Origin: Empedobacter falsenii
GTDB lineage: Bacteria; Bacteroidota; Bacteroidia; Flavobacteriales; Weeksellaceae
NCBI RefSeq assembly: GCF_019308355.1
Contig: NZ_JAAGKM010000025.1
Coordinates: forward strand, 1 to 40,088
Reading direction: 5' to 3'
DNA length: 40,088 nt
Below the pieces are notes generated by a model. The model saw nothing but the letters and a program-made list of their open reading frames with translations, ran no database searches and was not told the DNA's origin. Within the stretch, counting starts at the first letter, position 1; the number at the start of each line of letters is the position of its first letter. A program made the translations under genes and the position numbers. Of this stretch, positions 18,568 to 39,161 are shown one piece after another.

Positions 18568-18578
18568 CTTAGGTTAAG

Positions 18579-19293: not shown

Positions 19294-19434
19294 AAATTGT
19301 GTGTAAATTTTCGTCTAATTTAGTGAAAAAAGAAAACAGTAAAAAGCCAAAATGAGAAAATTAATGTGTCCCAATCCATAAAATTTTAGATGTCGGAAGA
19401 GGAATTCTGCATCGTTCCGGTAAACCTTGTCTTC

Positions 19435-20184
19435 TTATTTCTTACTTTCATCAAAAGTTGATTTCGGACGTTTGATGCTTTGTAAGGCGATTTTGTTCTG
19501 AGGAGCAGAATTTTGGGATTCCAATTCTGTTTGAAGAAAAGGCATTGTGTTTTTTATGGAAGACTTCCAGTTCGTTATCGGCTTGTTATAGCCATTTTTC
19601 CATTCGTTTCCGAGCCAACTCTCATATTTTTCTTTAATAAGATGGTCTAATTCGGGAACATAGCTTTCCAATGTTTTCGCATATTCTGTAAATTCGTCCA
19701 AAGAAGGAATAGTACCGGAACCCGGAATAGGTATTGCAACAGGAATTTCCGGAGGAGCATCGGGAGACAAATTTTGATTCTGTGGAGTTTCTCTTTTCTG
19801 TGGCAATTTTTCGGTAGTTTCCTTTTTTTTCGGAATTGGCTTTTGACTCCTTTTAGTCGTCGAACCTCCTTTGTCAGTTTCAGGCTTTTCAAAAGCGGAT
19901 AACGTCGGTGCATATTCCCGAAGAATTTTATAATGTCCCGGAAGCCCGTTTTTAGATTGATATTGAATCATTCCCAGATTGCTAAGTTTTTGGCGTAAAG
20001 TAATAATGGTGGGTCTTGTGATTTTCAGCCGCTCGCAAATTTCGGTATCCGAAAGCTTGAAATCATTTTCCTCATTTTTTTTCCATATTTCCAACAAAAA
20101 AAGGTAGATGGAAGCTGCGACAGCTCCCAACGGTTCTTTTTCGTTATGTTGCCAAAACTGCCTGATTAATCCCGAATAATTCAT
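19435..20184 (-). CDS. DnaD/primosome-like HTH replication protein
   Basis: This 249-residue protein has an N-terminal winged helix (IYLFLLEIWKKNEENDFKLSDTEICERLKITRPTIITLRQKLSNLGMI), a proline- and lysine-rich linker (about residues 95-155), and a C-terminal region ending GYNKPITNWKSSIKNTMPFL. That ending resembles DnaD-like replisome organisers ('K-x-I-x-N-W-K-x-x-I-x-N-x-x-P'). Its ATG overlaps the stop of the DUF3853 gene in an ATGA. It probably helps load the element's primase-helicase or recognises its origin. Confidence 0.65.
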   Translation of the reverse strand: MNYSGLIRQFWQHNEKEPLGAVAASIYLFLLEIWKKNEENDFKLSDTEICERLKITRPTIITLRQKLSNLGMIQYQSKNGLPGHYKILREYAPTLSAFEKPETDKGGSTTKRSQKPIPKKKETTEKLPQKRETPQNQNLSPDAPPEIPVAIPIPGSGTIPSLDEFTEYAKTLESYVPELDHLIKEKYESWLGNEWKNGYNKPITNWKSSIKNTMPFLQTELESQNSAPQNKIALQSIKRPKSTFDESKK

Positions 20185-20435
20185 TTTTTATGCAGAGCCA
20201 TAAGTTGCATTGCTTTCTCTTTATCTATGATAATAAGATTTCCGTTCTGAATGATGGCATCATCCAGAATTCCGCTGGACTTTAGTTCCGCTGCTTTCGA
20301 GCGGGAACAGCCCAGCATTCTGGCTAACCCTTTAAGCCCATATTCATACTTTTTTTCAGAAACAGCGGTTCTTTGTAATTTCAGAAATTCCTCAACAGTC
20401 AACTCAAGCAGTGGTTTTTTCGGATCGATATTCAT
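20181..20435 (-). CDS. DUF3853 family protein
   Basis: This 84-residue protein matches DUF3853 of Bacteroidota elements. It has an N-terminal segment PLLELTVEEFLKLQ, an HTH-like core YGLKGLARMLGCSRSKAAELKSSG and a C-terminal strand IIQNGNLIIIDKEKAMQLM. It is probably a small DNA-binding protein. It lies between the primase-helicase (48 bases upstream) and the DnaD-like gene (4-base overlap) in one minus-strand operon. Confidence 0.8.
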   Translation of the reverse strand: MNIDPKKPLLELTVEEFLKLQRTAVSEKKYEYGLKGLARMLGCSRSKAAELKSSGILDDAIIQNGNLIIIDKEKAMQLMALHKK

Positions 20436-20483
20436 AGTATTTTTTGTTTTTATAAAAAGTATTCAGGCAATTTCTTTGAACTC

Positions 20484-22520
20484 TTATTTTTTGAACTCAT
20501 AATTATTTTCAGAATCTTTGACAATCAATCCTTTCTCACGCATAAATTTAATATAGCTCTTTGCCGTTCGGTCTTTGACCGCCATCATATTTTGGAGCTT
20601 CTCACATAATCCGGCATAGGTATAATGCTTTTGCTGTGAAAATAGAGTCCGGGCAATATTTGCAAGTTCGATCTCTTTTCGTTTCTCTTTTTCTTCTTTG
20701 GTCTTCTCTCCGATAAAAACGTGCATTCCTTTTTCTTTATCCCACGAAAACTGTATAAGTGGAACATCCAAAGGACTTCCGTCCCTTACTTTCAGTGCCT
20801 TTACAACAGAGATTTGAGGATCATCATCTTTTTCAATGGATAAAATGGCAGCTGCTTTTCTTTGAAGCTCGCTTCCGAGATGTCCCCGAAGCTTTAATCC
20901 GTTGGGTGTGAAATGAAGTACTCCGATTATACAGGTTTTATAAATTCCAGCCATACGGTAGAGCTCATCAATTAAGGCAATGCTTTCTCCTTCATCATTC
21001 GCACAGCGTATCAAATCAGCTATTCCGTCTATTACCACCATATGAATTCCTGAAAATTGGTAATAAAATTTATCCATACTCTGCAATATTGCCTGCAACC
21101 GTTCTTTTCTTGACATACCGGCTAAACAGTAAGCTTTGAAATATCCTGGCATATTTTCTCTTCCGGAACGTTTCAGGATGCCTGAAATATTTTTGTACAG
21201 CTGGGTTTCGGACTGTTCGGTATCGTAAAGCAAGACGGCTTTTCCTTCAGTATTGGGAAGGATATTACTTCCTAAAGTATCTATATAGTCATCCTGACGT
21301 AATGTTCCGGCAATCAGGCTTCCTACATAATTACTTTTTCCTGTGCCTTCACCTCCCGTAAGTCCCATTAAATTCCCTTGTGTTCCCAATGGAACATCAT
21401 TAATGGAAATCAGCGTTTGCGATTGTAAGGGAGGCTGTGTAAAGTCGATTTCGCAAGGTTTCAGTATCGCCATAGTTTCATTATATAATTGGTCTAAAAA
21501 TTCAAGGAATAATTGATTAAAGTCATTTTTGGTATTTCCCATTCTGAAATAATCGGAAATATCCTTTTCCTGTTTAGCTCCCGAAAGAGGAAGTCTCAAA
21601 CGGTTTACTCCGAAACCGGATAGTTGTTTCTGATGCTTGATTGAAGCCTCCAATCCTGTTTTATCCACATCATATAAAATCAGAATGTGTTTGAAACGGT
21701 AGGAAAGCTTTTTAATCAGGCTTTCAGGTATTGAGCTTGTTTCACTGTTGAAGCAAATCGCATAAAATCCTTTGGAAGCCAATGACAATACATCCTTTTC
21801 TCCTCCGGTAATAAACAGGGTGTTTCCTTTGGCGGGCAATTGTTCCAATCCAAAACAATACGATTCAGGCAGATTTCCACCGTACAGGAAACGGATTTGG
21901 GAAAATGGACGGTAAATTTTCACATATTTTTTACCGAAATACCCAAATATAGGTTCTTCTGTCGAAGATTGTATGGTAAAAGGTTTTGAATCTTTATTTT
22001 CACTCGTGAACTCTTCTAATGAAACCACTTTGTATAATTTCAGGATTTCACGGGTAATGCTATATTGTTTCCAAAACTCAATTTCTTTCAGTGTAAAGCT
22101 ACGCTCAAATACGGAATAAGGTTTAGGATGATATGGTTGTTCCTTTATTATGTTTTCCTTTTTGCTCTCTGCTTTTGCTCTTGAAGAATATCTGTTTTGG
22201 GGCAAAATATATCCGTTTTCCAGTCCCAAATTCATTTCTTCATTGATCTGTTTCAGTATTTCTGTAAAATCTTTAGTACAGTCCAGGTTTTTAATTTTTC
22301 CTACAATTGAAAAACAATCTCCGGCATAATCAGGAGTCCCAAAATCCTTCATACGATACATACCACTTCGCCGGTCAAAGTAGATGTTGCAGGAAGCTTT
22401 GGTATCATCATAAAAAGGATTTTTAAAATTTCTGCCTACGCGCCAATCTCCCGGAAGGTAGTGTTTGAAAATATCCAGTCCGTCACGGGTGCAGCTGAGC
22501 ACTTTGTTTTTGTCTAACAT
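20484..22520 (-). CDS. TOPRIM primase fused to RepA/DnaB-like helicase
   Basis: This 678-residue protein has an N-terminal primase-like region (residues 10-100). A TOPRIM domain follows, with GGEKD (Glu241) and LYDVD (Asp284, Asp286). A RecA-fold ATPase has Walker A LTGGEGTGKSN (389-396 core) and Walker B MVVIDGIADLI (Asp498). A C-terminal wHTH segment ends the protein. The arrangement resembles primase-helicases of integrative elements, plasmids and phages. It should unwind and prime element DNA, working with the SSB encoded at 9300. Its start overlaps the upstream HTH gene by 38 bases. Confidence 0.88.
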   Translation of the reverse strand: MLDKNKVLSCTRDGLDIFKHYLPGDWRVGRNFKNPFYDDTKASCNIYFDRRSGMYRMKDFGTPDYAGDCFSIVGKIKNLDCTKDFTEILKQINEEMNLGLENGYILPQNRYSSRAKAESKKENIIKEQPYHPKPYSVFERSFTLKEIEFWKQYSITREILKLYKVVSLEEFTSENKDSKPFTIQSSTEEPIFGYFGKKYVKIYRPFSQIRFLYGGNLPESYCFGLEQLPAKGNTLFITGGEKDVLSLASKGFYAICFNSETSSIPESLIKKLSYRFKHILILYDVDKTGLEASIKHQKQLSGFGVNRLRLPLSGAKQEKDISDYFRMGNTKNDFNQLFLEFLDQLYNETMAILKPCEIDFTQPPLQSQTLISINDVPLGTQGNLMGLTGGEGTGKSNYVGSLIAGTLRQDDYIDTLGSNILPNTEGKAVLLYDTEQSETQLYKNISGILKRSGRENMPGYFKAYCLAGMSRKERLQAILQSMDKFYYQFSGIHMVVIDGIADLIRCANDEGESIALIDELYRMAGIYKTCIIGVLHFTPNGLKLRGHLGSELQRKAAAILSIEKDDDPQISVVKALKVRDGSPLDVPLIQFSWDKEKGMHVFIGEKTKEEKEKRKEIELANIARTLFSQQKHYTYAGLCEKLQNMMAVKDRTAKSYIKFMREKGLIVKDSENNYEFKK

Positions 22521-22836
22521 TCTTTTGGTGGTTTAGAATCAGGTCTTGTAAGCATTCTTCGCTCCGGCGGATCAGGTTTTCCTGTAACATCCTTTTAATT
22601 TCGCTGATCTTGTAATAATTTTTTCCCCTTATTCGGGAATAGTTGATTTTGTTTTCACTGCGTAATCTTTGCAGAGTGCGGTCACTAATCTTCAAAAAGG
22701 TGCATACCTCATAGCTATCTACCCAACTGTCCTCATCATCATTTGTGTTTTGCTGGGAAATAACATAATCGAAAATTGTGTCCACTTTTGACATCAAGTT
22801 TTTAAAAGCTTGTGATTCAATAGTGATTACTTCCAT
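22483..22836 (-). CDS. Excisionase-like helix-turn-helix protein
   Basis: This 117-residue protein has a MerR/Xis-type winged helix (about residues 37-90): DSYEVCTFLKISDRTLQRLRSENKINYSRIRGKNYYKISEIKRML. This pattern is shared with excisionase-like 'helix-turn-helix domain' proteins of Bacteroidota conjugative elements. A hydrophilic tail follows. It is the first gene of the replication operon and overlaps the primase gene. It may regulate the operon or aid excision. Confidence 0.82.
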   Translation of the reverse strand: MEVITIESQAFKNLMSKVDTIFDYVISQQNTNDDEDSWVDSYEVCTFLKISDRTLQRLRSENKINYSRIRGKNYYKISEIKRMLQENLIRRSEECLQDLILNHQKNVRQKQSAQLHP

Positions 22837-22858
22837 TAGTTTTTTTAGGTTTATACAC

Positions 22859-22890
22859 CAAAATTAGTGGTAGTAATCGTCAAATACCAA
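22859..22890 (-). promoter_or_regulatory. Promoter of the replication operon
   Basis: On the minus strand TTG (22890-22888), a 21-base spacer and TAATTTTG (22866-22859) fit the flavobacterial consensus. It lies 23 bases upstream of the excisionase-like gene's ATG. Confidence 0.6.
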
Positions 22891-23056
22891 TTGAAAGAAG
22901 GTCAATAACGGACAGGAAAAAGACAATAAAAGACAATTAATTTTATCCGAATAGTATAAGTCAAAAAAATAAATTTATGCTTGTTAACTTTTTTGACATC
23001 ATCAGCAAAAAAGAAAGAATGTTTCTGATAGAATTAAATTCAGGCTCATAAGGGCA

Positions 23057-23098
23057 GGTGCAAGGTGCAAGTATTATATAATACTTGCACCTTGCACC
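23057..23098. repeat. Perfect 42-bp palindrome with tandem heptamers
   Basis: Positions 23057-23098 read identically on both strands. Each arm contains two tandem copies of GGTGCAA (23057-23063 and 23064-23070) followed by GTATTAT, then the mirror half. A palindrome this long without mismatch is rarely accidental. It lies about 220 bases upstream of the replication operon and 27 bases before a rightward promoter. Candidates are a replication origin or transfer site, a resolution site, a bidirectional terminator or a REP-like element. Confidence 0.85.
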
Positions 23099-23124
23099 AG
23101 TCCCAAATGCTGATGAATAAAGGA

Positions 23125-23155
23125 TTGGTGTTTTGAAAAATTTTGGTTAAATTTG
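23125..23155 (+). promoter_or_regulatory. Consensus promoter reading rightward from the palindrome
   Basis: TTG (23125-23127), a 20-base spacer and TAAATTTG (23148-23155) match the flavobacterial consensus. The predicted transcription start is near 23160, where a 36-codon frame begins with ATG (23160-23270, MSGLQTKSGHTIGQNSAGKA). That frame may be a leaderless peptide, or the RNA itself may matter. A hairpin at 23406-23428 could end a transcript of about 270 bases. Confidence 0.5.
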
Positions 23156-23405
23156 CACTATGAGTGGTTTGCAGACAAAAAGTGGACACACAATAGGTCA
23201 AAATAGCGCAGGAAAAGCTCTAAATCGTACCCCTCGATTGAAAACACATCCGTTTAATGTTGAATATTAGCTGGTTATGTTTTATTTAGTAATTTTAAAT
23301 TAAAAATACATAAAAAGTAACCTAAGTAACCCAATTTCAGCAAAAAGATTTTTTTGTTTTTTGAGTTTATGAAAAAAGGGATTCAAACGAAGATAGTAAC
23401 GCAAT

Positions 23406-23428
23406 AAGGAGAAGCATTGGTTCTCCTT
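23406..23428 (+). terminator. Hairpin, possible terminator
   Basis: AAGGAGAA (23406-23413) pairs perfectly with TTCTCCTT (23421-23428) around a 7-base loop. The following sequence is only moderately T-rich. It could terminate the transcript from the promoter at 23125 or act in the minus direction. Confidence 0.35.
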
Positions 23429-23491
23429 TGCTTTGCTATTCGCTTATGTTTCCAGTTTTTTATTTTGAGGATTTTACCATTTTTATTTTGG

Positions 23492-23728
23492 TCAAATTTG
23501 GTTACTTTCCTTACTTGGTGTAATTCGGTGTTGACTTAAGAAATAAAGTGTAAGATTTAAGTATTTTACGAGTTTGGAAAGTAAGGAAAAGTAAGGGGGT
23601 TTTAGTAATGATTTTAATAGCTTTATGAGTTCCTTTAGTGGATTTTTCCAATCTTTAACCACGTGTTTTCTTGTCTTATGTAGATATTTATCTACTAAGT
23701 TTTTGAGTTTCCGTATTTGCTGATCCAT
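23492..23728 (-). CDS. Hypothetical basic protein (78 aa), doubtful
   Basis: This 78-residue, lysine- and leucine-rich frame begins MDQQIRKLKNLVDKYLHKTR inside the 3' end of the HTH gene (34-base overlap). No domain was recognised. The composition is that of an AT-rich chance frame, although an overlapping second frame after a transposase-like HTH gene can be a real orfB-type extension. I treat it as weak. Confidence 0.2.
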   Translation of the reverse strand: MDQQIRKLKNLVDKYLHKTRKHVVKDWKNPLKELIKLLKSLLKPPYFSLLSKLVKYLNLTLYFLSQHRITPSKESNQI

Positions 23729-24129
23729 TTGTATAAGGTTGTTTTGGGGATTCGGTAACGTTCTATGACCTGATTTTTGGTCATTTCTTCTGTAGAAATC
23801 TGTTCCAAAATAAAGTCAATAACTTCTTTGGTGTAAATATTTTTTCTAAATTGGGGAGCAGATGTTTTATTTTCAAATAAACCTTTTGAAGAAGAAGAAG
23901 AAGGCGGAGAATATAAAATCAAATGTTGACTGTATAACCTAAAAAAATCATACTCCAAAAGCTTACTCCATTTTAAAAGTAAATCGGTAGATAGATGCTC
24001 TTCTTTATACATTTCTTTGATTTCTGCTTCTGTTGCTTTCATAAAATTACAGATGCGGGATATTTCTATCCCGCTTTCTGTAACAAGTTGATTGATTAAA
24101 GAGCCTATATGGATTTCTTTGAAATTCAC
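23695..24129 (-). CDS. Transposase-like helix-turn-helix protein
   Basis: This 144-residue protein starts with GTG and opens MNFKEIHIGSLINQLVTESG, matching a Chryseobacterium-type protein often annotated as transposase. The N-terminal half resembles an HTH of the XRE kind (ISRICNFMKATEAEIKEMYKEE). The C-terminal half holds an HTH_23-like segment (TKNQVIERYRIPKTTLYKWISKYG). No DDE catalytic domain and no terminal inverted repeats were found, so it is probably a regulator rather than an active transposase. Its N-terminal half contains a serine run between the two HTH parts. Confidence 0.7.
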   Translation of the reverse strand: MNFKEIHIGSLINQLVTESGIEISRICNFMKATEAEIKEMYKEEHLSTDLLLKWSKLLEYDFFRLYSQHLILYSPPSSSSSKGLFENKTSAPQFRKNIYTKEVIDFILEQISTEEMTKNQVIERYRIPKTTLYKWISKYGNSKT

Positions 24130-24421
24130 TTTTTAATAATTTTTATCATCATCTTGTTATTCTCTAATATTAATTTATACTAAAGTTTAATAGTTAGTGT
24201 GTCATTCGGGAATTTTAAGAGATTTAGTATTGTATTTCTTTTCACGAAACTAAGATAAGAAACTGCATAAAATTTCGTTATTCATTTTTTAAAGACATAA
24301 CAATGTTGAATCAAAAAAATTAGCGATAGTTACGGCGTGAAATAAAATTTTTCTGAATTATAAAATATAAATAAGTTAATTATTTAAATTTAAGATTATA
24401 TTATATAGTATATTAAATACA
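24130..24421. other. AT-rich non-coding stretch
   Basis: These 292 bases lie between the HTH gene and the last lectin-like gene. No frame, strong hairpin or consensus promoter was found. It probably holds the promoter of the HTH gene and the end of the lectin operon, which shows no clear terminator. Confidence 0.4.
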
Positions 24422-25444
24422 TTATTGGTTAAATTCTATAATCAGTTGGTTTAATGCTCTGAACTCAGCGGCTATACCTCCTGGAGAAAATGTAGTAACA
24501 TCGCAGGGAGCATCATTCCATTTGAGTTTCAATCCGTCCATACCACTACTCATTCCGTTTGCCCAAATATGTGTACACCCCTCATTATTGCCAAGGTTAT
24601 TGGGCTCATCCTGAATATTCGCATTACTTGCAAAGTTTTGCTGTACGGTTGTTGCGTTGCTCCAGTTGTGTTTAGAGTTTTCTCCAGTAATCCAATAAAA
24701 TTCGATTGGGATCCCCGGAGCAGGCTGATTGGCTGGAGAATAAGACATATTGATAGCTTTGTTGTTTCCTATCCAGATGTTGTTTCTTAGATTACCATAA
24801 CCACTATTAGAGCCGTTGATAATATTATTTCTTACAAAAGTTTCTTCGGCATCAGAAGTAATGGTTAACAAATACCCGTTTAAAGTTTTTCCTACATTAT
24901 AGGCGGTTCCCCAATTGGCACCTCCTGTTCCTGGACTGCTACCACTGGTACCATTATTACCGCTTGTATAGACACAGTAGTAATGGCCGTTTCCTGCCGT
25001 CCACTGTGTACATCCTCTCTTTGTAAATGTTAGACCATCAACAACAACTGAGCTGGCGGCACTCGAAGCAATTCCATTCGGAGTATATCCTAGAATAGAA
25101 GGAATTACTCCATCTGATACTACATACGTTCTGGATCCTAATCCTGTTGGTTGCCATTTGTTGTCAGCCCAAAAGTAATATCCGGGTGCTACATCTGTTG
25201 CAGGGTTTGTGCTAGTAGTCTTTGTGTTGTATACCAACATCCCTTCTGTTGCAGGATTTACAAGTGGAGCCCAAACATTGGTAGCTGTTAGCTCTACCTG
25301 TGGGGCAAGAAATCCTTTGTCGGAAGACACTACATCCAACACGGCAGAGGTATGGGGAGATTCGATGCCTATGCCGACCTGCCCGAATGCTATGTTTGAT
25401 ACACAAACAAAAGCAAATATAGATTTGTATATTGATTTTTTCAT
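24422..25444 (-). CDS. Secreted C-type-lectin-like protein, EPN type
   Basis: This 340-residue protein has a signal peptide (MKKSIYKSIFAFVCVSNIAFG). An N-terminal fibre-like region with SAVLDVVSSDKGFLAPQVEL follows, a motif common in Bacteroidota surface proteins. A C-type lectin-like domain runs from about residue 140. It has GYLLTITSDAEETFV, IWIGNN, WITGE, DEPNNLGNNEGC (EPN at 280-282), KWNDAPC (WND at 309-311) and cysteines 145, 157, 290 and 314. EPN with WND is the mannose/glucose-type calcium site in animal lectins. It is the last gene of a three-paralogue run, 21 bases after the previous one. Confidence 0.85.
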   Translation of the reverse strand: MKKSIYKSIFAFVCVSNIAFGQVGIGIESPHTSAVLDVVSSDKGFLAPQVELTATNVWAPLVNPATEGMLVYNTKTTSTNPATDVAPGYYFWADNKWQPTGLGSRTYVVSDGVIPSILGYTPNGIASSAASSVVVDGLTFTKRGCTQWTAGNGHYYCVYTSGNNGTSGSSPGTGGANWGTAYNVGKTLNGYLLTITSDAEETFVRNNIINGSNSGYGNLRNNIWIGNNKAINMSYSPANQPAPGIPIEFYWITGENSKHNWSNATTVQQNFASNANIQDEPNNLGNNEGCTHIWANGMSSGMDGLKLKWNDAPCDVTTFSPGGIAAEFRALNQLIIEFNQ

Positions 25445-25465
25445 AAATTTTTAATATTTAATAAT

Positions 25466-26407
25466 TTAGTAAGCATCCTGAAATTCTACGATTACATCCT
25501 TGGCATTTGTTGCGGTTACACCATCTCTGTCAGCCCATTTTCTGGTTCCAGTTGACATTATATATGCAGCGCCATTTGCACTAACAATGCTTGGCATTCC
25601 AGTGTCAAAGTTTTGTTGTACCGTTGCTCCTCCAGCAACCTCCCAATTTACAGCCCATTGTTCCCCGGTAATCCATTTGTAGCGATATCTGTTGAAAGGG
25701 GTATCGTTGTTGTTTCCATCCAACGGAATGTAGCGGCTCTGGAATTTGTTGTAGCCCAGCCAAATATTAGTAGCTAAACTTTTAGCTGTAATGATGTTGG
25801 TCGTAATCCAGTTTCTTTCCGTATCGGATGTGATGGTAACCAAATAACCGCCTCTGTTTTGTGCAAAGTTATATGCTTGTGCCCATGTCCTATCACTGGA
25901 AGCTGTATAAGCACAGTAAGTATGGTCATTACCCCCAGCGCTTACAGACCATTTTACACAACCTTTTTTATTCCAGGTTGCACCACCATAACTAATGGTT
26001 CCAGTGGAGTTATCCGCAGTGATACCAGTATTGTTAGGTGTATATCCCAAAAGTTCTACATCTATTTTTTGTTGGAAGAGATAAGAGTTTGCAATTTTTC
26101 CCATGGGATTCCACTGGTTATTGTACCAGTAATAATGCCCTGGTGTTACATTGGTATTGGGATTAGGATTGGTTGTTGTACTGGTATTGTATACTAATAA
26201 CCCGTCTTTTGGTGAAGTAATGGTTGCTACATCGGTAGCTGATAATGCTACATTGGGCAAAGACGCACCTTTATTGGCAGCATCCAGTTGCAACATTGCA
26301 GATGCAACTATTGCCGGAGGGGTTGCTGTATTGGTCATCTGAACCTGTGCAGATGTGCCTATGCCAAAAGCTATACTGAATACTATAGCAAGATATATGT
26401 TTTTCAT
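25466..26407 (-). CDS. Secreted C-type-lectin-like protein, binding motif lost
   Basis: The ATG at 26407 gives 313 residues starting with the signal peptide MKNIYLAIVFSIAFGIGTSA. Frames further upstream run into the preceding gene and are not the start. The layout equals its neighbours: MLQLDAANKGASLPNVALSA, then a lectin-like domain with GYLVTITSDTERNWI, IWLGYN and WITGEQW. At the sugar site it reads DTGMPSIVSANG with no EPN or QPD, and KWADRDG in place of WND. The last two cysteines are missing. It probably does not bind sugar in the calcium-dependent way, or it binds another ligand. Confidence 0.82.
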   Translation of the reverse strand: MKNIYLAIVFSIAFGIGTSAQVQMTNTATPPAIVASAMLQLDAANKGASLPNVALSATDVATITSPKDGLLVYNTSTTTNPNPNTNVTPGHYYWYNNQWNPMGKIANSYLFQQKIDVELLGYTPNNTGITADNSTGTISYGGATWNKKGCVKWSVSAGGNDHTYCAYTASSDRTWAQAYNFAQNRGGYLVTITSDTERNWITTNIITAKSLATNIWLGYNKFQSRYIPLDGNNNDTPFNRYRYKWITGEQWAVNWEVAGGATVQQNFDTGMPSIVSANGAAYIMSTGTRKWADRDGVTATNAKDVIVEFQDAY

Positions 26408-26418
26408 AAGTTGCAATT

Positions 26419-27399
26419 TTAATTTTGATATTCTACAATAAGATATGATACCGGTTTGGTGTCGATAGTGGTATTGTTGCAATTGGTATCGTACCATAAT
26501 CTGGTGCTGCTTTTTGATGTAGCTGATATATGAGCACAACCTTCCGTACCACCATTGTTATCAGGTTGGTTTACATCAAAGTTAAATTCAAAACTGGAAT
26601 TTTTATAATACGGAGCTGTTGTTATTCCTGCACGTTCCCAGGCAACCATAGATACCTCTCCTGTAATCCATGTAAATTTCTGAGGATTTCCGGGATAGGT
26701 TATTTTGTTGAAGCCCAACCATACGTTATTTTGGTTTTGTGAAGGTAAAGAAGTAGAAAGAAGGTTGTTTTTTACAAAATCCCATTCCTCTGTGCTGGTA
26801 ATTGTAGCCATGTAGCCATTCAGATTTTTGGCAATCGTGAAAGCTGTTGTCCAATTTGTACCAACAGCTGCATTTGTGGTGTTATCGGTAAGACTATATC
26901 CGCAAAATGAGTGATTGTTGCCTGTAGTAAATTTGTAGCATCCTGCTTTGGTCGCTTTTATATTGCCATAAACATATTCAGCAGGTGCTGTAGCCATGCT
27001 TCCTTCCGGCACGTACCCTAATGTTGATGTGCTGATATCTGTTATTGCATAGTTTTGGATTGTATTAGAGCTTTTCTGCCAAGGAATCCAACTCAAACCA
27101 CTCCAGTAATAATATCCTTTGCCTATTGTTGCATTGGTATTATACACTAAAAGCCCTGGTTTCAAATCGGCTGTGATAGTAGTAGTAGTAATAGGAGTTC
27201 TGGAGGTAAGGGAAGTTAAAGCTACTCTGGGACCCAAAAATCCTTTGGTTTCGGCATGTACATCCAAAATGGATGAAGGATGGGGGAAATCATTTGGGAT
27301 TGTAGTATCTGTCGATATAATCCCAACTGCTTTTCCTGTTTGTCCATATGAACAAACTGCTATCAGTAAAAGAGCTGATGTTAATATATTTTTTATCAT
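26419..27399 (-). CDS. Secreted C-type-lectin-like protein, QPD type
   Basis: The ATG at 27399 is preferred to the TTG at 27405. The protein has 326 residues with signal peptide MIKNILTSALLLIAVCSYG. It shares the fibre-like SILDVHAETKGFLGPRVALTS segment, then a lectin-like domain with GYMATITSTEEWDFV, VWLGFN and WITGE. The sugar-site motif is NQPDNNGGTEGC (QPD near 278-280, galactose-type in animal lectins) with WYD near 302-304, and all four cysteines are present. It lies 11 bases before the next paralogue. An inverted repeat AGGTTAT...ATAACCT (27413-27433) stands just upstream. Confidence 0.85.
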   Translation of the reverse strand: MIKNILTSALLLIAVCSYGQTGKAVGIISTDTTIPNDFPHPSSILDVHAETKGFLGPRVALTSLTSRTPITTTTITADLKPGLLVYNTNATIGKGYYYWSGLSWIPWQKSSNTIQNYAITDISTSTLGYVPEGSMATAPAEYVYGNIKATKAGCYKFTTGNNHSFCGYSLTDNTTNAAVGTNWTTAFTIAKNLNGYMATITSTEEWDFVKNNLLSTSLPSQNQNNVWLGFNKITYPGNPQKFTWITGEVSMVAWERAGITTAPYYKNSSFEFNFDVNQPDNNGGTEGCAHISATSKSSTRLWYDTNCNNTTIDTKPVSYLIVEYQN

Positions 27400-27508
27400 G
27401 TTCAAAAATTTTAGGTTATTATTTAGATAACCTGTTGTGTATTATTAGCAAAGCATTAAATAAGTGTTAAAAACTAAACACTTTAAATTTTTGTTGTGTA
27501 ATTAATTT

Positions 27509-27582
27509 GTCCTTGTCAAGAGAAACGACGAAGCAATCCGTTGTACTTAATTAGGGCTTGCTTCCTTTCGCTCGCAAGGACG
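27509..27582. repeat. REP-like palindromic element
   Basis: The segment opens near GTCCTTGTCAAGAG, includes CGACGAAGCAATCCG (about 27526-27540) and closes with GCTTGCTTCC and GCAAGGACG. The two sides are diverged reverse complements, resembling the widespread 'CGTCATTGCGAGGAACGAAGCAATCC' type of short dispersed palindrome. It overlaps the last codons of the gene ending at 27516. Confidence 0.5.
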
Positions 27583-28256
27583 GGCGGTGGGCGGATTCTG
27601 CCCGCAATTAAAAATTTGACATTTTTATAAACAGATGGGGAATCAGTGGTTTCTTGCTGATGGTAAGCAAAGAAGAGCTGTTTTATAGTTTCGGAAGGTG
27701 ATACAGATAGTTTAATGTTGTGATTGGAAGAGGGCGAAAAGGCAGAAGCGTAATTGGTATTAAAATGTATAAACTGCTGTGGGTTGCCGTCCTTTATGTA
27801 TATTTTGTATTTTTTTTGTTGGTTTTCTTCCTTATGTACTTTATTGTTTTGTGTTTTTTCTTTTTTCGGTTTGGGTGTATTTTTGGCGTATTGTTTTACG
27901 TTTTTGGAAGTTTTTTGGATATATACAATTTTGGTACTTCCAAGCTCTTCCAACCCAGAAACGGAGGTTCCTTCTAAAATAAAGATTTTGCTTTTTTCTA
28001 TAGTAGATATTGTTGTTCTTTCAATATCTATATCACTAGATACTTCTCCCACAACTGTTGTTCCACTCGCAATAAATAGTTTGGTGGGTGTTATCAGTTT
28101 CTGTGTTAGGGTAGCATCTTGCGATACATATAAAATAGCGTCACCAGTAGTATAAATCTGCGCATAAGAGAATAGAGAAAAAAGAGAACACAAAAACACC
28201 AAAAGGGTATTACAACCCTTTCGGATAAATGTTTTTATGTAGAAACTCTTTTTCAT
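27516..28256 (-). CDS. Secreted hypothetical protein leading the lectin operon (246 aa)
   Basis: The N-terminus has a long signal peptide (charged MKKSFYIKTFIRKGCN, then LLVFLCSLFSLFSYA). A strand-rich region follows, with GDAILYVSQDATL and TKLFIASGTTVVGEV. A lysine-rich stretch (KPKKEKTQNNKVHKEENQQKK, about residues 130-150) comes next, then a more ordered end. The final roughly 25 residues (RPPPVLASERKQALI and on) are encoded by the REP-like element, so the original C-terminus was probably different. The family is unknown. It is the first gene of the minus-strand run with the three lectin-like proteins. Confidence 0.65.
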   Translation of the reverse strand: MKKSFYIKTFIRKGCNTLLVFLCSLFSLFSYAQIYTTGDAILYVSQDATLTQKLITPTKLFIASGTTVVGEVSSDIDIERTTISTIEKSKIFILEGTSVSGLEELGSTKIVYIQKTSKNVKQYAKNTPKPKKEKTQNNKVHKEENQQKKYKIYIKDGNPQQFIHFNTNYASAFSPSSNHNIKLSVSPSETIKQLFFAYHQQETTDSPSVYKNVKFLIAGRIRPPPVLASERKQALIKYNGLLRRFS

Positions 28257-28275
28257 CGGTTTTGGTTGGTTGAAA

Positions 28276-28479
28276 TAGTCTGCTTTAGACTATTATTTTA
28301 TCTTATTGTATTGTAATACAATATTATTTAAGATGTAAGTAATTGAAATTGGTTTTATTTAAAAGAAAAATGCAAAAACATTAAATCAAATTATTTTAAT
28401 TTAAAACACTATTGCATAAATGTTTGGAGTTATCAAGAAAAGAATTATCTTTGCTTCGAAAGTAGTCTAAAGCAGACTA
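28276..28479. promoter_or_regulatory. Candidate invertible promoter segment
   Basis: TAGTCTGCTTTAGACTA (28276-28292) and its reverse complement TAGTCTAAAGCAGACTA (28463-28479) bound 170 bases. Inside, TTTG (28423-28426), a 19-base spacer and TATCTTTG (28446-28453) form an excellent promoter pointing right, toward the recombinase gene. No TAnnTTTG promoter points left toward the lectin operon at 28256. Inversion would turn the promoter toward the lectins. A further near-palindrome lies at 28305-28322. Because each 17-mer is itself nearly symmetric, the pair could instead be two operator sites. Confidence 0.5.
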
Positions 28480-28530
28480 CTTTTATTATCTTAAATTCGT
28501 TGAGAAATAACACGATTAAAACTCAACGAA

Positions 28531-29501
28531 ATGACATTTGAATTCTTTTTGCCTGAAAAAGGTATTGTAAAAAACATCCACTTAAACCTTACCGACCAAC
28601 AACAAAACAGAACCTATACTTTTCGTACACAATTAAGAATTTCTGAAAAAGATTGGGACAAAAACAAACAACGTCCTTCGAATATCTATCTGAAAAAGTA
28701 TAAAAAACTAAATAGTACACTCGATATCCTAAAAATAGAATTAGCTGAAAGTATTCGATTCAAACGCGAAGAAAACAAACAATTACCTCAAAGATCTATA
28801 TCTAAAAAAATAAAAGATATTTGTTCTAAACAAAAGAAAAAACTTCCTGAAAATTCATTACTCTTTTATATGAAGTGGTATATTGAAACAAAAAAGGAAC
28901 TCATCTGCAATTCCACATATAAACGATATAAAGTATTTTATCACCTGATGGAACGTTTCGAGGGTTTTGTCTGTAAAAAACTTTATGTAGAAGAAATCAA
29001 TTCGGATTTCATTCGGGAATTTATGATTTTCGGGAAAGAGGAAGAATACAGTGAGAATACGATCTATAGAACCATTCATTTTGTAAAGACAATCTTGAAT
29101 TTTGCAGAGCGAAAAAGCATAAGAACTTGTGTAAGAGAGCTGGAACTTCGACGAGAAAAACAAAGAAAAGAAATCATTACGCTTACCACCTATACAATGA
29201 AAAAATAAAACAAATTGGGCAATATGCAGGTATTAATGAAAAAATAAAAGCAAGAAAACGTATTGGTTTCAGAACCAGAAATGTTGAAGTTCAAAAATAT
29301 GAGGTAATAACCAGTCATATCGGAAGACGTAGCTTTGCTACCAATTTCTATGGAAAAATCCCTACTCCCTTATTAATGGAAGCTACCGGACACAGTACGG
29401 AACAGATGTTTTTACGGTACATTAATCCTACTAATAATGAGAGAATTCTTGCTTTGGGAGATTATTTTGATAGAGTGTATGAGGAAAGAATGGCGGTATG
29501 A
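28531..29501 (+). pseudogene. Tyrosine recombinase (integrase), internally deleted
   Basis: Two frames carry one gene. Frame 28531-29208 has the arm-binding and SAM-like core-binding domains through ELELRREKQRKEIITL. Frame 29127-29501 resumes with YNEKIKQIGQYAG and holds SHIGRRSFATNFYGKIPTPLLMEATGHSTEQMFLRYI (the H-x-x-R box, the second His and the catalytic Tyr). Family members have about 80 residues between these points, including the first catalytic Arg (TGQR region) and the Lys. They are missing, and the reading frame is broken at about 29180. The enzyme cannot be active from this copy. Confidence 0.85.
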
Positions 29502-34364: not shown

Positions 34365-35535
34365 CTATTTTCTACTCGAATATCTCAATACCAAATAGCC
34401 TAAAATCCCTGCTATAAGCGAGGTTACTAATACCGATAATTTAGCTTCCTCTATAAAAATAGGATTATCGAAAGAGAGCATTGATATAAAAATAGACATC
34501 GTAAACCCTATACCCGCTACCAAGCCCAAACCTATCATGTGAATAAGGGTACTGTTGGCTGGCAACTGCCCAATGCCAAATTTGGAACATAAAAAAGAGG
34601 TGATCACAATCCCTATAGGTTTTCCAAAAATTAATCCCAAAGAAATACCCAATCCCAAAGGAGAGGTCAGTCCTTCGATCATTTCGTGCTGAATAGTGAT
34701 ATTGGTATTTGCAAATGCAAAGATGGGAATAATCAGAAAATTAACAGGTTTTACAAGAGCGTGTTCCAATCTTTCCAATGGCGACTCCACAGCCGTATCG
34801 TTGGTAGGCAAAGTCATAGCTACCAATACTCCTGCAATTGTAGCATGAATACCCGAATGATGCACAAAATACCATATAAAAACACCTGGAATTAAGTATA
34901 AATAAGGATTTTTCACCCTTAGCCTATTCATCAATACAAGCACTATCATTCCCACTCCAGCATACATCAAATAATCATACTCAATTCCAGATGAGTAAAA
35001 AACGGCGATTACTAAAATGGCTATCAAATCATCTACAATTGCTAAGGCAGCTAAAAAGATCTTTAAACTAGCGGGTATTCGTTTATCTAAAAGAGAAATG
35101 ACGGCTAAATAAAGCAAAAGCAATATCAGTAGCCATCGGTATTCCCCATCCTCCAGAGGTTTCGCTGCCCGAATTAAAAAACATATAAATCAGTGCTGGT
35201 ACCACCGCACCACCTATAGCGGCTATTATCGGTAGCATTGCTTTTTTGGGAGAAGATAGTTCGCCTTCTACCATTTCCCGTTTTATTTCTAGCCCTACCA
35301 AAAGAAAAAACACAGCCATCAAGCCATCATTGATCCACATACTGATGGAATAACGAAGATGTATGCCATAGCTTTCAAAACCCAATTTGGTATCCTGTAA
35401 GTTTTGCAGCGGTATAGCCCAAGACGTATTGGCTACTATCAATGAAATGATGACACATACAAAAAGGAGAAAACCACCAAAATTACTCGATTTTACAAAG
35501 TTTTTGAAAACGTTTAAATTGATTATATTGGACAT
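34365..35535 (-). pseudogene. nhaA: Na+/H+ antiporter NhaA, broken by a 4-bp duplication
   Basis: The N-terminal frame (35535 to 35083) has typical NhaA sequence through GWGIPMATDIAFAL, then reads out of frame. The second frame (from 35123) continues with LAVISLLDKRIPASLKIFLAALAIVDDL to the end. At 35106-35113 the sequence TAAATAAA contains a tandem TAAA. Removing one copy restores DIAFALAVISLLDKR, which fits the family. The intact protein would have about 388 residues and 12 helices. NhaA genes are among those controlled by fluoride riboswitches in some bacteria, and this one sits beside the fluoride locus. Confidence 0.88.
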
Positions 35536-35708
35536 ATATCTGACTTACTAATAAACAGCGCAATATACCAATATTAACCAGAAGAATGGAACTTTCGAAG
35601 GCAGAACATTCGGGACAGAAAAAGATAGTAGAAACAGCTATTTGACATTAAAAAATAAAAAAACGAAGGAAATTTCATTGCAATCGATGATTTGTAACAA
35701 AAAAAATA

Positions 35709-35782
35709 TACATTTGTACGTATCAAAAAAGGAAATGGTGTTCTTCCTTGCCCAACCGCTTTAAAGAAGCTGATGACGCCTG
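35709..35782 (+). promoter_or_regulatory. Fluoride riboswitch (crcB motif) with -7 box
   Basis: The aptamer lies at 35731-35782. GGAAATGGTGTTCTTCC (35731-35747) provides the P1 arms and the conserved ATGG and TTC. The AACCGC segment near 35754 begins the internal hairpin, closed by AAGC. GCTGATGACGCCTG (35769-35782) is the highly conserved 3' part. The order and spacing match the crcB motif, where fluoride stabilises a pseudoknot and turns on expression. TACATTTG (35709-35716) is a good -7 box, but the spacing to the nearest TTG is only 14. Confidence 0.88.
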
Positions 35783-35792
35783 ATTAAATTAA

Positions 35793-37127
35793 ATGTTTAA
35801 CATTTTAATCAGGTTGGTTATGTCAATAAATAACAAAAAGTCATTCGGTCAAAAAATCAATTTATCAGCAAAAGTTTTTTTCAGACGTTATCCTGCTTTG
35901 CCCTATATTCTTAAATGGACATTGATCTGTTTATGTATCGGAGTATGTGTGGGAAGTGTTTCCGCAGGTTTTTTACAATCTTTGGATCGGGTTACTGATT
36001 TTCGCGAAAGCCATTTATGGTTGATTGCATTACTGCCGGTGGGCGGTTTCTTCATTGGGCTGCTTTATCATTACTTTGGCAAAGACGTTGAAGCAGGAAA
36101 CAATCTGCTTATTGACACCATTCACGAACCAAAAAAAACTATTCCGTTCCGGATGGCACCGTTTGTGTATATCGGAACCATTGCCACACATTTTTTTGGC
36201 GGTTCGGCAGGACGTGAAGGCACTGCACTGCAAATGGCAGGTGCTATTGCCGACCAGTTCAGCAAACCTTTTCGGCTGATAGAAAGTGAACGCAAAATTT
36301 TAATTATCGCTGCTATCGCTGCAGGTTTCGGTTCTGTTTTCGGAACACCATTGGCTGGAGCCATTTTTGGCTTGGAAGTTTTTTTGATCGGACGGTTAAA
36401 ATACAATGCTCTTTTTCCTGCCTTTGCGGCTTCTATTATTGCCGATTTGGTAACCAAACTATGGCAGACACATCATACACATTACCATATTAGCTTTATT
36501 CCCGACATTTCTTTTTTGAATATAATTTATGCCGTCATTGCAGGGATTATTTTTGGGCTATGTGCCGCCACGTTTAGCAAAGTGATACATCACACAGGAA
36601 CTGTTTTCAAATCAAAAATCGCTTATCCTCCACTAAGGCCTTTATTGGGTGGTATCATCATAGCATTGGCAGTTTGGACAATAGGCACAACAAAATACAT
36701 TGGTTTGGGCATCCCTACCATAGTTGCTTCTTTCGACCAACAATTGCCTGCTTATGATTTTGCTTTGAAAATGGCGTTTACCATTATCACCTTATCGGCA
36801 GGTTTTAAAGGCGGAGAAGTGACACCCTTGTTTTTTGTAGGAGCCGCATTGGGCAGTGCAATAAGTTTATTTATACCGTTGCCTACCGGACTTCTAGCAG
36901 GAATGGGGTTTGTTGCGGTTTTTGCAGGAGCGACCAATACACCTATTGCTTGCAGTATTATGGCAATTGAACTTTTTGGTGCCGAATGTGGCGTTTATGC
37001 CGCCATTGCCTGTATTGTTGCGTATCTGTTGTCTGGCCACAACAGCATTTACCGGACACAGATGATTGGCGAGCCTAAAAACCAAAGGTTTTCAAATTAT
37101 CAGCGAAAGCGAATAAATGATCTCTAA
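35793..37127 (+). CDS. CLC-type anion transporter, fluoride (CLC-F/EriC-F) subtype
   Basis: ATG 35793 gives 444 residues. ATG 35820 (residue 10) is an equally good start. About ten membrane segments are visible. The canonical chloride-selectivity motif GSGIP is replaced by GNNLL (residues 102-106). GREGT (140-144) carries the gating Glu142. GGEVTPLFFVGA replaces the usual GG-x-F-x-P motif. These changes are typical of CLC-F fluoride/proton antiporters. The riboswitch directly upstream supports the assignment. It exports fluoride across the inner membrane. Confidence 0.88.
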   Translation: MFNILIRLVMSINNKKSFGQKINLSAKVFFRRYPALPYILKWTLICLCIGVCVGSVSAGFLQSLDRVTDFRESHLWLIALLPVGGFFIGLLYHYFGKDVEAGNNLLIDTIHEPKKTIPFRMAPFVYIGTIATHFFGGSAGREGTALQMAGAIADQFSKPFRLIESERKILIIAAIAAGFGSVFGTPLAGAIFGLEVFLIGRLKYNALFPAFAASIIADLVTKLWQTHHTHYHISFIPDISFLNIIYAVIAGIIFGLCAATFSKVIHHTGTVFKSKIAYPPLRPLLGGIIIALAVWTIGTTKYIGLGIPTIVASFDQQLPAYDFALKMAFTIITLSAGFKGGEVTPLFFVGAALGSAISLFIPLPTGLLAGMGFVAVFAGATNTPIACSIMAIELFGAECGVYAAIACIVAYLLSGHNSIYRTQMIGEPKNQRFSNYQRKRINDL

Positions 37128-37184
37128 AATGTGTGTTTTTTGAATGAACTATTTTAAAACAGGAATAACTTAAAATCAAACAAT

Positions 37185-37601
37185 ATGTCAGAACAATTAA
37201 AAGAAAACCAAACAAGCGAAGCGGTTTTAATCGTAAAACCATCAGATCTGGCAAGCGCATTGCCATTAACAGAACAGGATGCATTTCCCGAAGTATTTGC
37301 TACCTCAAGAATGATTGCCTTAATGGAATTGGCAGCCGCAAGGATGATGCAATCTCTTTTACAAGAAGGAGAATTGTCTGTTGGCGTTGGGGTAAATATT
37401 CTGCATACAGCTGCTACAACGGTAGATGAAGAAGTGAGAGCTTTGGCTACATTTGTAAAACAAGAAGGCAAGTTGTACCACTTCAATGTTGAAGTATTCG
37501 ACAAAGGTGGTTCTGTTGGCAAAGGCGAACACACAAGAGCGATCGTAAGTGCAGAACGGCTAATAGGAAGTGCTAAAAAGAGATTAAACAAAGAACTTTA
37601 A
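37185..37601 (+). CDS. FlK-like fluoroacetyl-CoA-type thioesterase (hotdog fold)
   Basis: This 138-residue protein aligns with Streptomyces cattleya FlK. FATSRMIALMELAAARMM and GVGVNILHTAATTVDEEV hold Thr40, Glu48 and His74, spaced exactly as the catalytic Thr42, Glu50 and His76 of FlK (8 and 26 apart). A later GEHTRAIV corresponds to the FlK THERAV segment. FlK hydrolyses fluoroacetyl-CoA. Many bacterial homologues have unknown substrates. Placement behind a fluoride riboswitch suggests a fluorinated or otherwise toxic acyl-CoA. Confidence 0.85.
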   Translation: MSEQLKENQTSEAVLIVKPSDLASALPLTEQDAFPEVFATSRMIALMELAAARMMQSLLQEGELSVGVGVNILHTAATTVDEEVRALATFVKQEGKLYHFNVEVFDKGGSVGKGEHTRAIVSAERLIGSAKKRLNKEL

Positions 37602-37613
37602 ATACAAAAGACG

Positions 37614-38369
37614 ATGAAATTATTTGATGCCCATTTTCACATCATCAATCCTAAATTTCCGTTGGTAGAAAACAACGGTTATTTACCTCCCAAGTTTACC
37701 GCAGCGGATTATCTCACCACAACAAGCAGTTATGATATTGCAGGCGGAGCCATTGTATCGGGTTCGTTTCAGGCTTTTGACCAGGAATATTTGATAGATG
37801 CCCTGCAAACTTTAGGCAATAACTTTTTTGGTGTTGCCAATATTCCTGCAACAATCAAGGATGAAGAATTAGAACGGCTGAGCAATGCCAATATAGTTGC
37901 CGTGCGTTTCAATGTAAAACGGGGCGGTTCTGAAAAAATAGAACACATAGAAAAACTTTCCAACTACCTTTTCGAAAAATACGGATGGCATACCGAACTT
38001 TATATTGACAGCGTAGATTTAAGCAGACTGAAATCTGTTCTGCAAAATATTCCACAATTTTCTATCGACCATTTGGGATTATCAAAGGATGGACTTAAAG
38101 ATTTATATTATTGGGTAGAAAAAGGCGTAAAGGTAAAAGCAACAGGTTTCGGACGAATTGATTTTGATCCCATCGAAGCAATGAAAACCATTTATCACAT
38201 CAACCCAAAGGCATTAATGTTCGGTACGGACTTGCCTTCCACACGTGCCAAAATTCCGTTTTCAGACAAAGATGTACAACGGGTAAAGGAAAATTTTTCG
38301 GCAGATGAACTTGAAAATATCTTTTATAACAATGCTTTTGAATGGTATAGTAGGGTCGAAATCGGATAA
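37614..38369 (+). CDS. Amidohydrolase family metal-dependent hydrolase
   Basis: This 251-residue TIM-barrel protein of the Amidohydro_2 type has DAHFHI at the N-terminus (Asp5, His7, His9), a later His in SIDHLGL, and the active-site Asp in MFGTDLPSTR. It resembles small lactonase/decarboxylase-type enzymes such as PDC lactonase. It starts 12 bases after the FlK-like gene and must be cotranscribed from the riboswitch. The substrate is unknown. Fragments of a paralogue occur at 31363 and 34053. Confidence 0.85.
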   Translation: MKLFDAHFHIINPKFPLVENNGYLPPKFTAADYLTTTSSYDIAGGAIVSGSFQAFDQEYLIDALQTLGNNFFGVANIPATIKDEELERLSNANIVAVRFNVKRGGSEKIEHIEKLSNYLFEKYGWHTELYIDSVDLSRLKSVLQNIPQFSIDHLGLSKDGLKDLYYWVEKGVKVKATGFGRIDFDPIEAMKTIYHINPKALMFGTDLPSTRAKIPFSDKDVQRVKENFSADELENIFYNNAFEWYSRVEIG

Positions 38370-38608
38370 TCGTGAACATATCCATTTTTTTATTTCTATT
38401 TTTGCCATTGAATTTTAATAAATCAACGTAATGAACGAACTAATCGAAAAAATCAGTGCTTCATTTGAAGCATTAAAAGCCGATGCAGAATTGCAGGCTG
38501 AAAAAGGAAACAAAGCGGCCGGAACAAGAGCCCGTAAAACTTCCCTTGAACTGGAGAAACTATTAAAAGAGTTCAGAAAAGCATCTTTAGAAGCTTCAAA
38601 AAGCTAAA
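38350..38608 (+). repeat. Segmental duplication, copy 2
   Basis: This copy repeats 34074-34330 nearly exactly, including the end of the amidohydrolase gene, the spacer and the histone gene. The few differences are mostly silent within hc1. The source copy is probably this one, because here the amidohydrolase is complete. Confidence 0.85.
38431..38607 (+). CDS. Histone H1-like DNA-binding protein Hc1, copy 2
   Basis: This 58-residue protein differs from copy 1 only at position 37 (Thr for Ala), in TRARKTSLELEKLLKEF. It follows the amidohydrolase by 61 bases and ends just before a terminator, so it may be the last gene of the fluoride operon. Nucleoid packing is the family role. Why a fluoride operon would carry it is not clear, and the pairing may be only an effect of the duplication. 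Confidence 0.88.
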   Translation: MNELIEKISASFEALKADAELQAEKGNKAAGTRARKTSLELEKLLKEFRKASLEASKS

Positions 38609-38644
38609 AAAAAACCCTCTTATCTATTTTTGAGGGGATTTTTT
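38608..38644 (+). terminator. Terminator after hc1 copy 2
   Basis: CCCTC (about 38614-38618) pairs with GAGGG (38631-38635) within flanking A and T tracts, ending in a run of T. It closes the operon that starts at the fluoride riboswitch. Confidence 0.7.
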
Positions 38645-38698
38645 GTTATCGGAATTTTCTGTTTGCAATAATAAAGTATAGGCTCCAATCATAAAAAA

Positions 38699-38744
38699 TC
38701 CGAAAAGTTCACCATCGATAAGCTTGCATAAAAGTTTATCTTTG
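38699..38744 (+). promoter_or_regulatory. Shared upstream element and -7 box of the AraC gene
   Basis: TCCGAAAAGTTCACCA (38699-38714) is repeated at 39139-39154 before the SDR gene. In both places the distance from CGAAAAG to ATCTTTG is 37 bases. Here the -7 box is TATCTTTG (38737-38744). No TTG stands 17-23 bases upstream, which fits a promoter that needs an activator bound at the repeat. Confidence 0.55.
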
Positions 38745-38765
38745 TGATATTTTACAGACCGCCAA

Positions 38766-39161
38766 ATGGGAAAGACAGAGCAGGACATAACGAGAAGCGA
38801 AGAAATTACCCAAACCTACTTTCGGTTTCTGGACAAACATATTGCGGATGTGGTTTCGGGTACTGTAAGTGATTTTATGGAAATCAACCAAATTGCGGAA
38901 GAACTTTTCCTCTCCCACAAACACCTGAGCGACACCGTTCAGAAAGAAACAGGTAATCATCCCTGTCATTTTTACGACCACAAAATTATTGATGAAGCAA
39001 AAAAAATGCTTTCCAAAACAGATAAATCCATTGCTGAAATAGCAAAAATACTCACCTACGACCCCTCCAATTTCTCCAAATTTTTCAAAAAGTTTGTTGG
39101 TCAAACACCAGGTCAATATCGCAAAGAAAATAAAAATTCCGAAAAGTTCACCACGAAATAA
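38766..39161 (+). CDS. Small AraC-type DNA-binding protein
   Basis: This 131-residue protein consists almost only of the AraC double HTH (about residues 35-125): ISDFMEINQIAEELFLSHKHLSDTV is approximated by the first helix pair and KSIAEIAKILTYDPSNFSKFFKKFVGQTPGQYRKE by the second. There is no ligand domain. It precedes the SDR gene by 58 bases and shares an upstream element with it, so it probably activates both. Confidence 0.87.
   Translation: MGKTEQDITRSEEITQTYFRFLDKHIADVVSGTVSDFMEINQIAEELFLSHKHLSDTVQKETGNHPCHFYDHKIIDEAKKMLSKTDKSIAEIAKILTYDPSNFSKFFKKFVGQTPGQYRKENKNSEKFTTK

Follow-up and report, generated by a model that had tools for sequence, protein, structure and literature searches.

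Thioesterases of the FlK family have been described alongside fluoride exporters. Caballeronia sp. S22 carries an aconitate methyltransferase, a fluoroacetyl-CoA thioesterase, a fluoroacetate dehalogenase and CrcB together on replicon g (PMC11812338), so that the clustering of FlK with a fluoride exporter is already published. The Delftia plasmid pUO1 has a similar arrangement: behind the FlK-family gene lie genes for an alpha/beta hydrolase and a transposase, and then crcB. We take this hydrolase to be the fluoroacetate dehalogenase DehH1. Fluoride riboswitches mark genes that are wanted when fluoride rises, and some of their partner genes have no explained role. Here we analyzed a 40,088-nucleotide (nt) stretch of Empedobacter falsenii DNA (contig NZ_JAAGKM010000025.1, positions 1 to 40,088; hereafter the window), in which a fluoride riboswitch is followed by genes for a CLC-F fluoride/proton antiporter, an FlK-family thioesterase and a small amidohydrolase:

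35722..35789, + strand: fluoride riboswitch aptamer (RF01734; covariance match, 53.5 bits, E 3.1e-12)
35779..35813, + strand: putative expression platform hairpin CCTGATTAA...TTAATCAGG (kept in 14 of 14 cassettes)
35820..37127, + strand: CLC-F fluoride/proton antiporter, 435 amino acids (aa) (PDB 6d0j, E 1e-62; signatures; start placed by comparison)
37185..37601, + strand: FlK-family (PF22636) hotdog thioesterase, 138 aa (Pfam, 99.7 bits; PDB FlK 3kv7, E 2.2e-14)
37614..38369, + strand: Amidohydro_2, LigI-like hydrolase, 251 aa (Pfam, profile match and conserved residues)

Like the S22 and pUO1 clusters, this locus joins an FlK-family thioesterase gene to a fluoride exporter gene. The two clusters differ from it in that the exporter is CrcB, a methyltransferase is present, and a dehalogenase (S22) or an alpha/beta hydrolase (pUO1) is encoded; furthermore, the stretch of pUO1 lacks both a fluoride riboswitch at the gathering score and an annotated amidohydrolase. 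The locus resembles the reviewed riboswitch-CLC-F operons in its aptamer and CLC-F signatures and in the occurrence of such cassettes in Flavobacteriales, but the partners named in the accessible part of that review are Na+/H+ antiporters, pyrophosphatase, HAD proteins, enolase and ion transporters, and the word thioesterase is not mentioned there (PMC11139923). Enterobacter cloacae FRM likewise has a riboswitch-led, multi-gene fluoride resistance unit, which is island-borne; its operon consists of ppaC, uspA, eno, gpmA, crcB and orf5249, and the accessible text makes no mention of a thioesterase (PMC5533749). The word is also absent from the main text of Weinberg 2010 (PMC2864571). No description of CLC-F, riboswitch, FlK-family thioesterase and this amidohydrolase together was found in the open-access literature searched, the coverage of which excludes the 2012 riboswitch/CLC-F gene tables, and the three-gene riboswitch combination seems undescribed within that literature.

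A preliminary description of this DNA, made from the sequence and its open reading frames, had not known the combination of fluoride export and fluoroacyl-CoA hydrolysis in one riboswitch operon as a described unit. The link of fluoride export with organofluorine detoxification in one cluster had, however, been published for S22 with CrcB, and pUO1 is similar. If the thioesterase in such a unit acts as FlK does, it would tie inorganic fluoride sensing to organofluorine defence, which bears on fluoroacetate toxicity and on the engineering of defluorinating bacteria.

The riboswitch unit and its recurrence in Flavobacterium potami

The unit is a real, rare and conserved putative operon composed of parts of known kinds. 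The Rfam covariance search that the preliminary description had proposed for the aptamer region was run on the whole window, and its sole match at the gathering score (34) was the fluoride riboswitch, covering all 64 model positions (1-64). The crcB-motif aptamer placed earlier at 35731-35782 is therefore confirmed, with slightly longer limits. The CLC protein matches Pfam Voltage_CLC (254 bits), and its top match among solved structures is the CLC-F antiporter, far ahead of the best chloride CLC (1kpl, E 6.1e-12). The CLC-F hallmarks noted earlier are all present, GNNLL, GREGT and GEVTP starting at residues 93, 131 and 332. The signatures listed in the review are GNNLI/GMGLI, GREGT/V and GEVTP (PMC11139923), so that the window has L where GNNLI has I; among 39 compared CLC rows, 28 have GNNLL, four have GNNLI and seven have neither by the pattern used. 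These rows are the best matches to one query and thus a non-random sample. In their tree, a branch (support 99) parts the 14 riboswitch-bearing CLC-Fs, as judged by pattern, from the 25 without, as if riboswitch and exporter lineage travelled together.

The complete unit was found a second time. A contig scan with the thioesterase, confined to close relatives, returned one relative, Flavobacterium potami (82% identical), in which a riboswitch (44 bits), CLC-F, thioesterase and amidohydrolase follow one another in the order of the window. By tblastn, the CLC-Fs are 65% identical, the thioesterases 82% and the amidohydrolases 79%. Identity at four-fold sites is 0.41, 0.28 and 0.42 for the three genes in this order, compared to shuffled means of 0.29, 0.30 and 0.34, and the observed value was reached in 5, 1323 and 254 of 2000 shuffles each. 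Because the silent sites are at or near chance, those of CLC-F little above it, and the spacers differ between the two units, the gene order predates the near-saturation of silent sites. A recent shared transfer was rejected on these grounds, and the shared order is probably old and kept by selection, or else was assembled twice. At the DNA level the thioesterase-amidohydrolase pair is 77% identical between the two species and CLC-F 69%. This difference is explained by slower protein change, since CLC-F has preserved its silent sites at least as well as the pair; a separate movement of the pair into both cassettes was dropped on this ground and because the tree test was borderline. That test concerns the best CLC-F tree, a quickly built one, in which the window and F. 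potami CLC-Fs fall into different groups and their sisterhood has an approximately unbiased (AU) p of 0.051.

Related cassettes were collected as loci with an aptamer 5′ of a CLC gene by sequence pattern, which may miss others; 13 of 38 loci qualified and, with the window, give 14 cassettes (the window, seven of its own genome or genus, F. potami and five of a large genus in the same order, presumably Flavobacterium). Two of the 14 carry the pair and 12 lack it in the stretch examined, five of the 14 loci (L061-L065) being covered for only about 1.5 kb downstream. The pair could accordingly be cargo, that is, a mobile passenger without a role in fluoride or organofluorine stress, an explanation that we consider unlikely. 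It would fit this sparse distribution, the varying downstream genes of the other cassettes, the PRTRC and integrase-like genes of the window, and the position of the F. potami riboswitch about 190 nt 3′ of a tRNA-Met gene (4196-4269 of locus L013), a possible insertion site of an island. It would also fit the placement of the carriers' CLC-Fs as non-sisters, which is not firmly established. However, two species belonging to different genera have kept the same order although their silent sites are worn and their spacers differ, and the amidohydrolase and thioesterase were never together in the other loci examined, which makes a chance recurrence behind CLC-F unlikely.

Both hydrolases are rare in the overlapping genome sets surveyed. 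In the window's family (320 genomes), the thioesterase protein query matched at E 1e-10 in its own genome alone, and in a search without a positive control it matched none of 348 genomes of the large same-order genus. At the order level, 7 of 395 genomes matched at E 1e-3, the six others being 32-41% identical. A profile of the window and F. potami thioesterases matched 4 of 335 genomes of the phylum at 1e-8, and the Pfam FlK model scored above its cut-off in 5 of 60 genomes searched, the own genome included in both counts. The amidohydrolase was found at 1e-20 in three of 395 phylum genomes (its own, and two with 70% and 51% identity). A search of 73 stretches of viral contigs yielded no relative.

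Expression platform and possible reach of fluoride control

In all 14 cassettes the final CCT of the aptamer starts a hairpin, CCTGATTA...TTAATC(A/G)GG, and a start codon follows a few bases on. In the window, the 3′ CCU of the aptamer itself opens the 5′ arm, and the 3′ arm stops 6 nt before the ATG at 35820. The segment 35776-35830 folds with -12.5 kcal/mol (z -3.4); when 20,000 segments of 60 bases were drawn at random from the window, 41 contained a comparable 9-bp hairpin. As the hairpin is not followed by a T run, we read the platform as translational: it looks like a hairpin that masks the CLC-F start site, with the fluoride-bound aptamer retaining the CCU. The true CLC-F start is most likely ATG 35820 and not 35793 of the earlier open reading frame, because the latter falls within the conserved hairpin; the protein then has 435 residues, equal to the second CLC-F copy in the genome. 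This second copy has a fluoride riboswitch of its own (locus L060, contig C26, 138-1546). In the window's genus, eight fluoride riboswitches were found in 6 of 14 genomes, all ahead of a CLC gene. A small protein (RIYF.YGQ...) is encoded 3′ of CLC-F in L060 and also in L055 and L056; it looks to us like DUF190, and the L060 protein had no match in an NCBIfam search.

According to this scheme, binding of fluoride by the aptamer would make its 3′ CCU unavailable to the CCUGAUUAA/UUAAUCAGG hairpin, the CLC-F start site would be freed, and the antiporter would expel fluoride against protons. Both hydrolases would be made from the same mRNA. The preliminary description had taken the genes as one riboswitch operon in the sense of co-regulation, and here we depart from it: with a translational platform and a thioesterase start 57 nt past the CLC-F stop, the thioesterase would be fluoride-controlled only if poor translation of CLC-F cuts downstream mRNA or translation.

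The thioesterase and the amidohydrolase

The thioesterase exceeds the cut-off of the Pfam FlK model (27 bits) by far, and its best solved relative is FlK of Streptomyces cattleya, with which it shares the fold family. T40, E48 and H74 align with T42, E50 and H76 of FlK at identical spacing, as the preliminary description had noted, and G67 and R118 are the equivalents of Gly69 and Arg120. In a 16-row alignment, E48, G67, H74, H116 and R118 are found in every row and T40 in 15. This conservation extends to nine plasmid proteins without an annotated fluoride exporter within 4-5 kb, so that the Thr/Glu/His triad, although present, was rejected as proof of FlK function. Phe33 and Phe36 form the lid of FlK. 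The latter is retained as F34 in the window and F. potami proteins, and an equivalent phenylalanine occurs in 5 of 16 rows, thus not generally in the family; in the pUO1 protein, position 33 is F and position 36 is M. The S. cattleya protein is 37% identical to that of the window over a 101-aa fragment; F. potami apart, the other rows range from 23 to 41%, and a single one of them comes nearer.

The thioesterase tree comprises the same number of rows, 16, with long branches and FlK as the fragment. In this tree, the window and F. potami proteins group with those of Variovorax and Caballeronia NK8 and a long-branched Rhodococcus protein (86/98), whereas S. cattleya FlK groups with pUO1, Novosphingobium and Halobellus (92/90). 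The window protein thus differs from FlK in the replacement of F33, in overall identity and in its tree group. A tree holding the window, F. potami and S. cattleya proteins together was rejected (AU p 0.016, for a small tree), and orthology to FlK is not supported.

The third gene is indeed a small amidohydrolase, as described earlier. It matches Pfam Amidohydro_2 with 69.8 bits and the profile of LigI, 2-pyrone-4,6-dicarboxylate lactonase (4d8l), with E 1.2e-14. It is shorter than the LigI PDB chain (251 against 303 residues), and H7, H9, H153 and D206 are invariant in 8 of 8 aligned homologues. They correspond to the HxH, second His and Asp of LigI, which we presume to be catalytic in the LigI/COG3618 lactonases. 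Its sole NCBIfam match is 4-sulfomuconolactone hydrolase at 35 bits, far below the cut-off of 500. A relative with 47% identity lies on S. cattleya pSCAT (locus L023), where eight frames were scanned, one of them the amidohydrolase's own; among the others, Pfam matched VIT1, HypD and HypC and, below cut-off, a SnoaL-like family. Given these neighbours and the further relatives on Peribacillus, Streptomyces and Nocardia plasmids, no fluorine link is shown for the amidohydrolase, and a link through pSCAT was discarded.

We tentatively interpret the unit as a Flavobacteriales fluoride-stress cassette that has gained two hydrolases clearing fluoroacyl-CoA. The thioesterase most likely would hydrolyse a small toxic acyl-CoA, for which the foremost candidate is a 2-fluoroacyl-CoA such as fluoroacetyl-CoA; CoA and the free acid would thereby be released before the ester reaches central metabolism. 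As part of this clean-up, the LigI-like enzyme would most likely open a lactone or cleave a carboxylated metabolite related to it. The identities of riboswitch, CLC-F and FlK-family protein, the recurrence of their order in F. potami, the hairpin of all 14 cassettes, the retained F34, the 37% identity to FlK, and the precedent of pUO1 and Caballeronia S22 for FlK and fluoride export travelling together are in line with this interpretation. A bolder form of it, which we hold to be doubtful, would make this the first fluoride-riboswitch operon to use inorganic fluoride as an organofluorine alarm: having evolved independently of FlK, a new sub-family of fluoroacyl-CoA thioesterases and its partner hydrolase might shield cells without their own dehalogenase against fluoroacetate that neighbours release or degrade only halfway, with CLC-F exporting the fluoride.

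Several observations weigh against the fluoroacyl-CoA interpretation. FlK hydrolysis neither makes nor removes fluoride. The active-site residues are common to the family and so are no proof of specificity for fluoroacetyl-CoA, the lid residue Phe33 of FlK is replaced by Q31 in the window and by E in F. potami while both S. cattleya FlK and pUO1 have F, and the common clade with FlK is rejected as above. The amidohydrolase gives no fluorine clue: the neighbours read beside three plasmid relatives show no fluorine link, and its two other Bacteroidota loci have no CLC match, thioesterase match or aptamer-pattern match in the stretches examined. The pair is absent from most related cassettes, and with a platform that appears translational it is not certain that fluoride controls the two distal genes. 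No dehalogenase is encoded in the unit, and in the own genome the pUO1 alpha/beta hydrolase, a single query that could miss other dehalogenase types, gave four matches of 28-30% identity over about 100-113 of its 294 residues. The same query gave six matches in F. potami, the best 37% over residues 5-153; 18 stretches of the own genome match the alpha/beta-hydrolase model. Finally, flK inactivation in S. cattleya is cited as without effect on growth in NaF (PMC3999930), and fluoride tolerance alone therefore needs no FlK.

A rival and somewhat doubtful explanation is metabolite repair under fluoride poisoning, in which acyl-CoAs and lactones would accumulate behind blocked enolase and other enzymes and the two hydrolases would recycle CoA and clear side products, with no organofluorine involved. 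Metabolic enzymes that fluoride inhibits, and also stress proteins, are encoded in fluoride riboswitch regulons (PMC11139923; PMC5533749). The resemblance of the second enzyme to LigI lactonases and the lack of a close dehalogenase in the one-query search of the own genome point the same way, as do the varied loci in which plasmid FlK-family thioesterases sit. We examined 13 such loci, drawn from 21 and 29 records: pUO1 has crcB, nine have no annotated fluoride exporter, and three are unannotated (L028, L049 and L050). No fluoride riboswitch at the gathering score was found in these 13 and three Bacteroidota loci, nor in the 1.5-kb flanks of nine FlK-model matches in relatives (four above cut-off). 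On the other hand, the F36-equivalent phenylalanine is kept here and yet is found in a minority of the family, no metabolite of this kind is known, and the tree-nearest thioesterases have CoA ligase, enoyl-CoA hydratase and HAD genes for neighbours, not glycolysis genes.

Those relatives, from Variovorax VAI-C and Caballeronia NK8 (loci L016 and L048; 41% and 35% identical), have as neighbours a PaaK-like CoA ligase, an enoyl-CoA hydratase family protein, a HAD protein and part of an ABC transporter. Such surroundings would suit a fragment of a catabolic pathway for halogenated or aryl acids, with a late CoA-ester thioesterase, a LigI-like lactone step and released fluoride as the inducer, and the faint 4-sulfomuconolactone hydrolase match agrees with it. 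We judge this origin very unlikely: the unit contains neither a ligase nor a dehalogenase, and the HAD proteins reach 113 and 100 bits with the model for haloacid dehalogenase type II, near but below its cut-off of 125.4, the best PDB matches of the Variovorax protein being mixed.

Promoter region, 3′ end and neighbouring genes

The interval 35709-38644 contains three further features, among them a fourth small gene and a terminator-like stem beyond the three genes named above:

35709..35716, + strand: -7-box-like sequence TACATTTG (resembles the Bacteroidota -7 promoter box)
38431..38607, + strand: Hc1 histone H1-like protein, 58 aa (PF07432, 85.8 bits)
38616..38637, + strand: terminator-like stem with T tail (stem scan, weak)

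We take TAnnTTTG to be the consensus of the Bacteroidota -7 box, which TACATTTG resembles, and the same -7-like box is found 5′ of the F. potami riboswitch. A well-spaced TTTG at -33 was not found for TACATTTG, and a scan for TTTG-N16-22-TAnnTTTG did not return this site; a sigma-70 promoter scan was uninformative (12 sites against 8.8 expected). At the other end, the F. potami locus yielded no match to Hc1, so that Hc1 was rejected as a fourth member of the conserved set; it is perhaps read through from the operon. The stem at 38616-38637 is a possible transcript end, in a region (35400-38800) with eight terminator-like sites against 3.5 expected in shuffles, which lends it weak support.

Upstream of the unit and divergent from the riboswitch lies nhaA, encoding a Na+/H+ antiporter (34365-35535, - strand). 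It is split over two overlapping frames that each match their own part of the NhaA model, reflecting a broken gene or a sequencing error. The region 9300-29208 of the window encodes SSB, PRTRC_E, Prok-E2_D, ThiF, a Toprim/AAA protein, an integrase-like SAM domain and lectin-like proteins, and looks like a PRTRC-type mobile element. In two congeners, the cassettes (L032 and L033) adjoin near-identical large open frames, which are presumably element genes.

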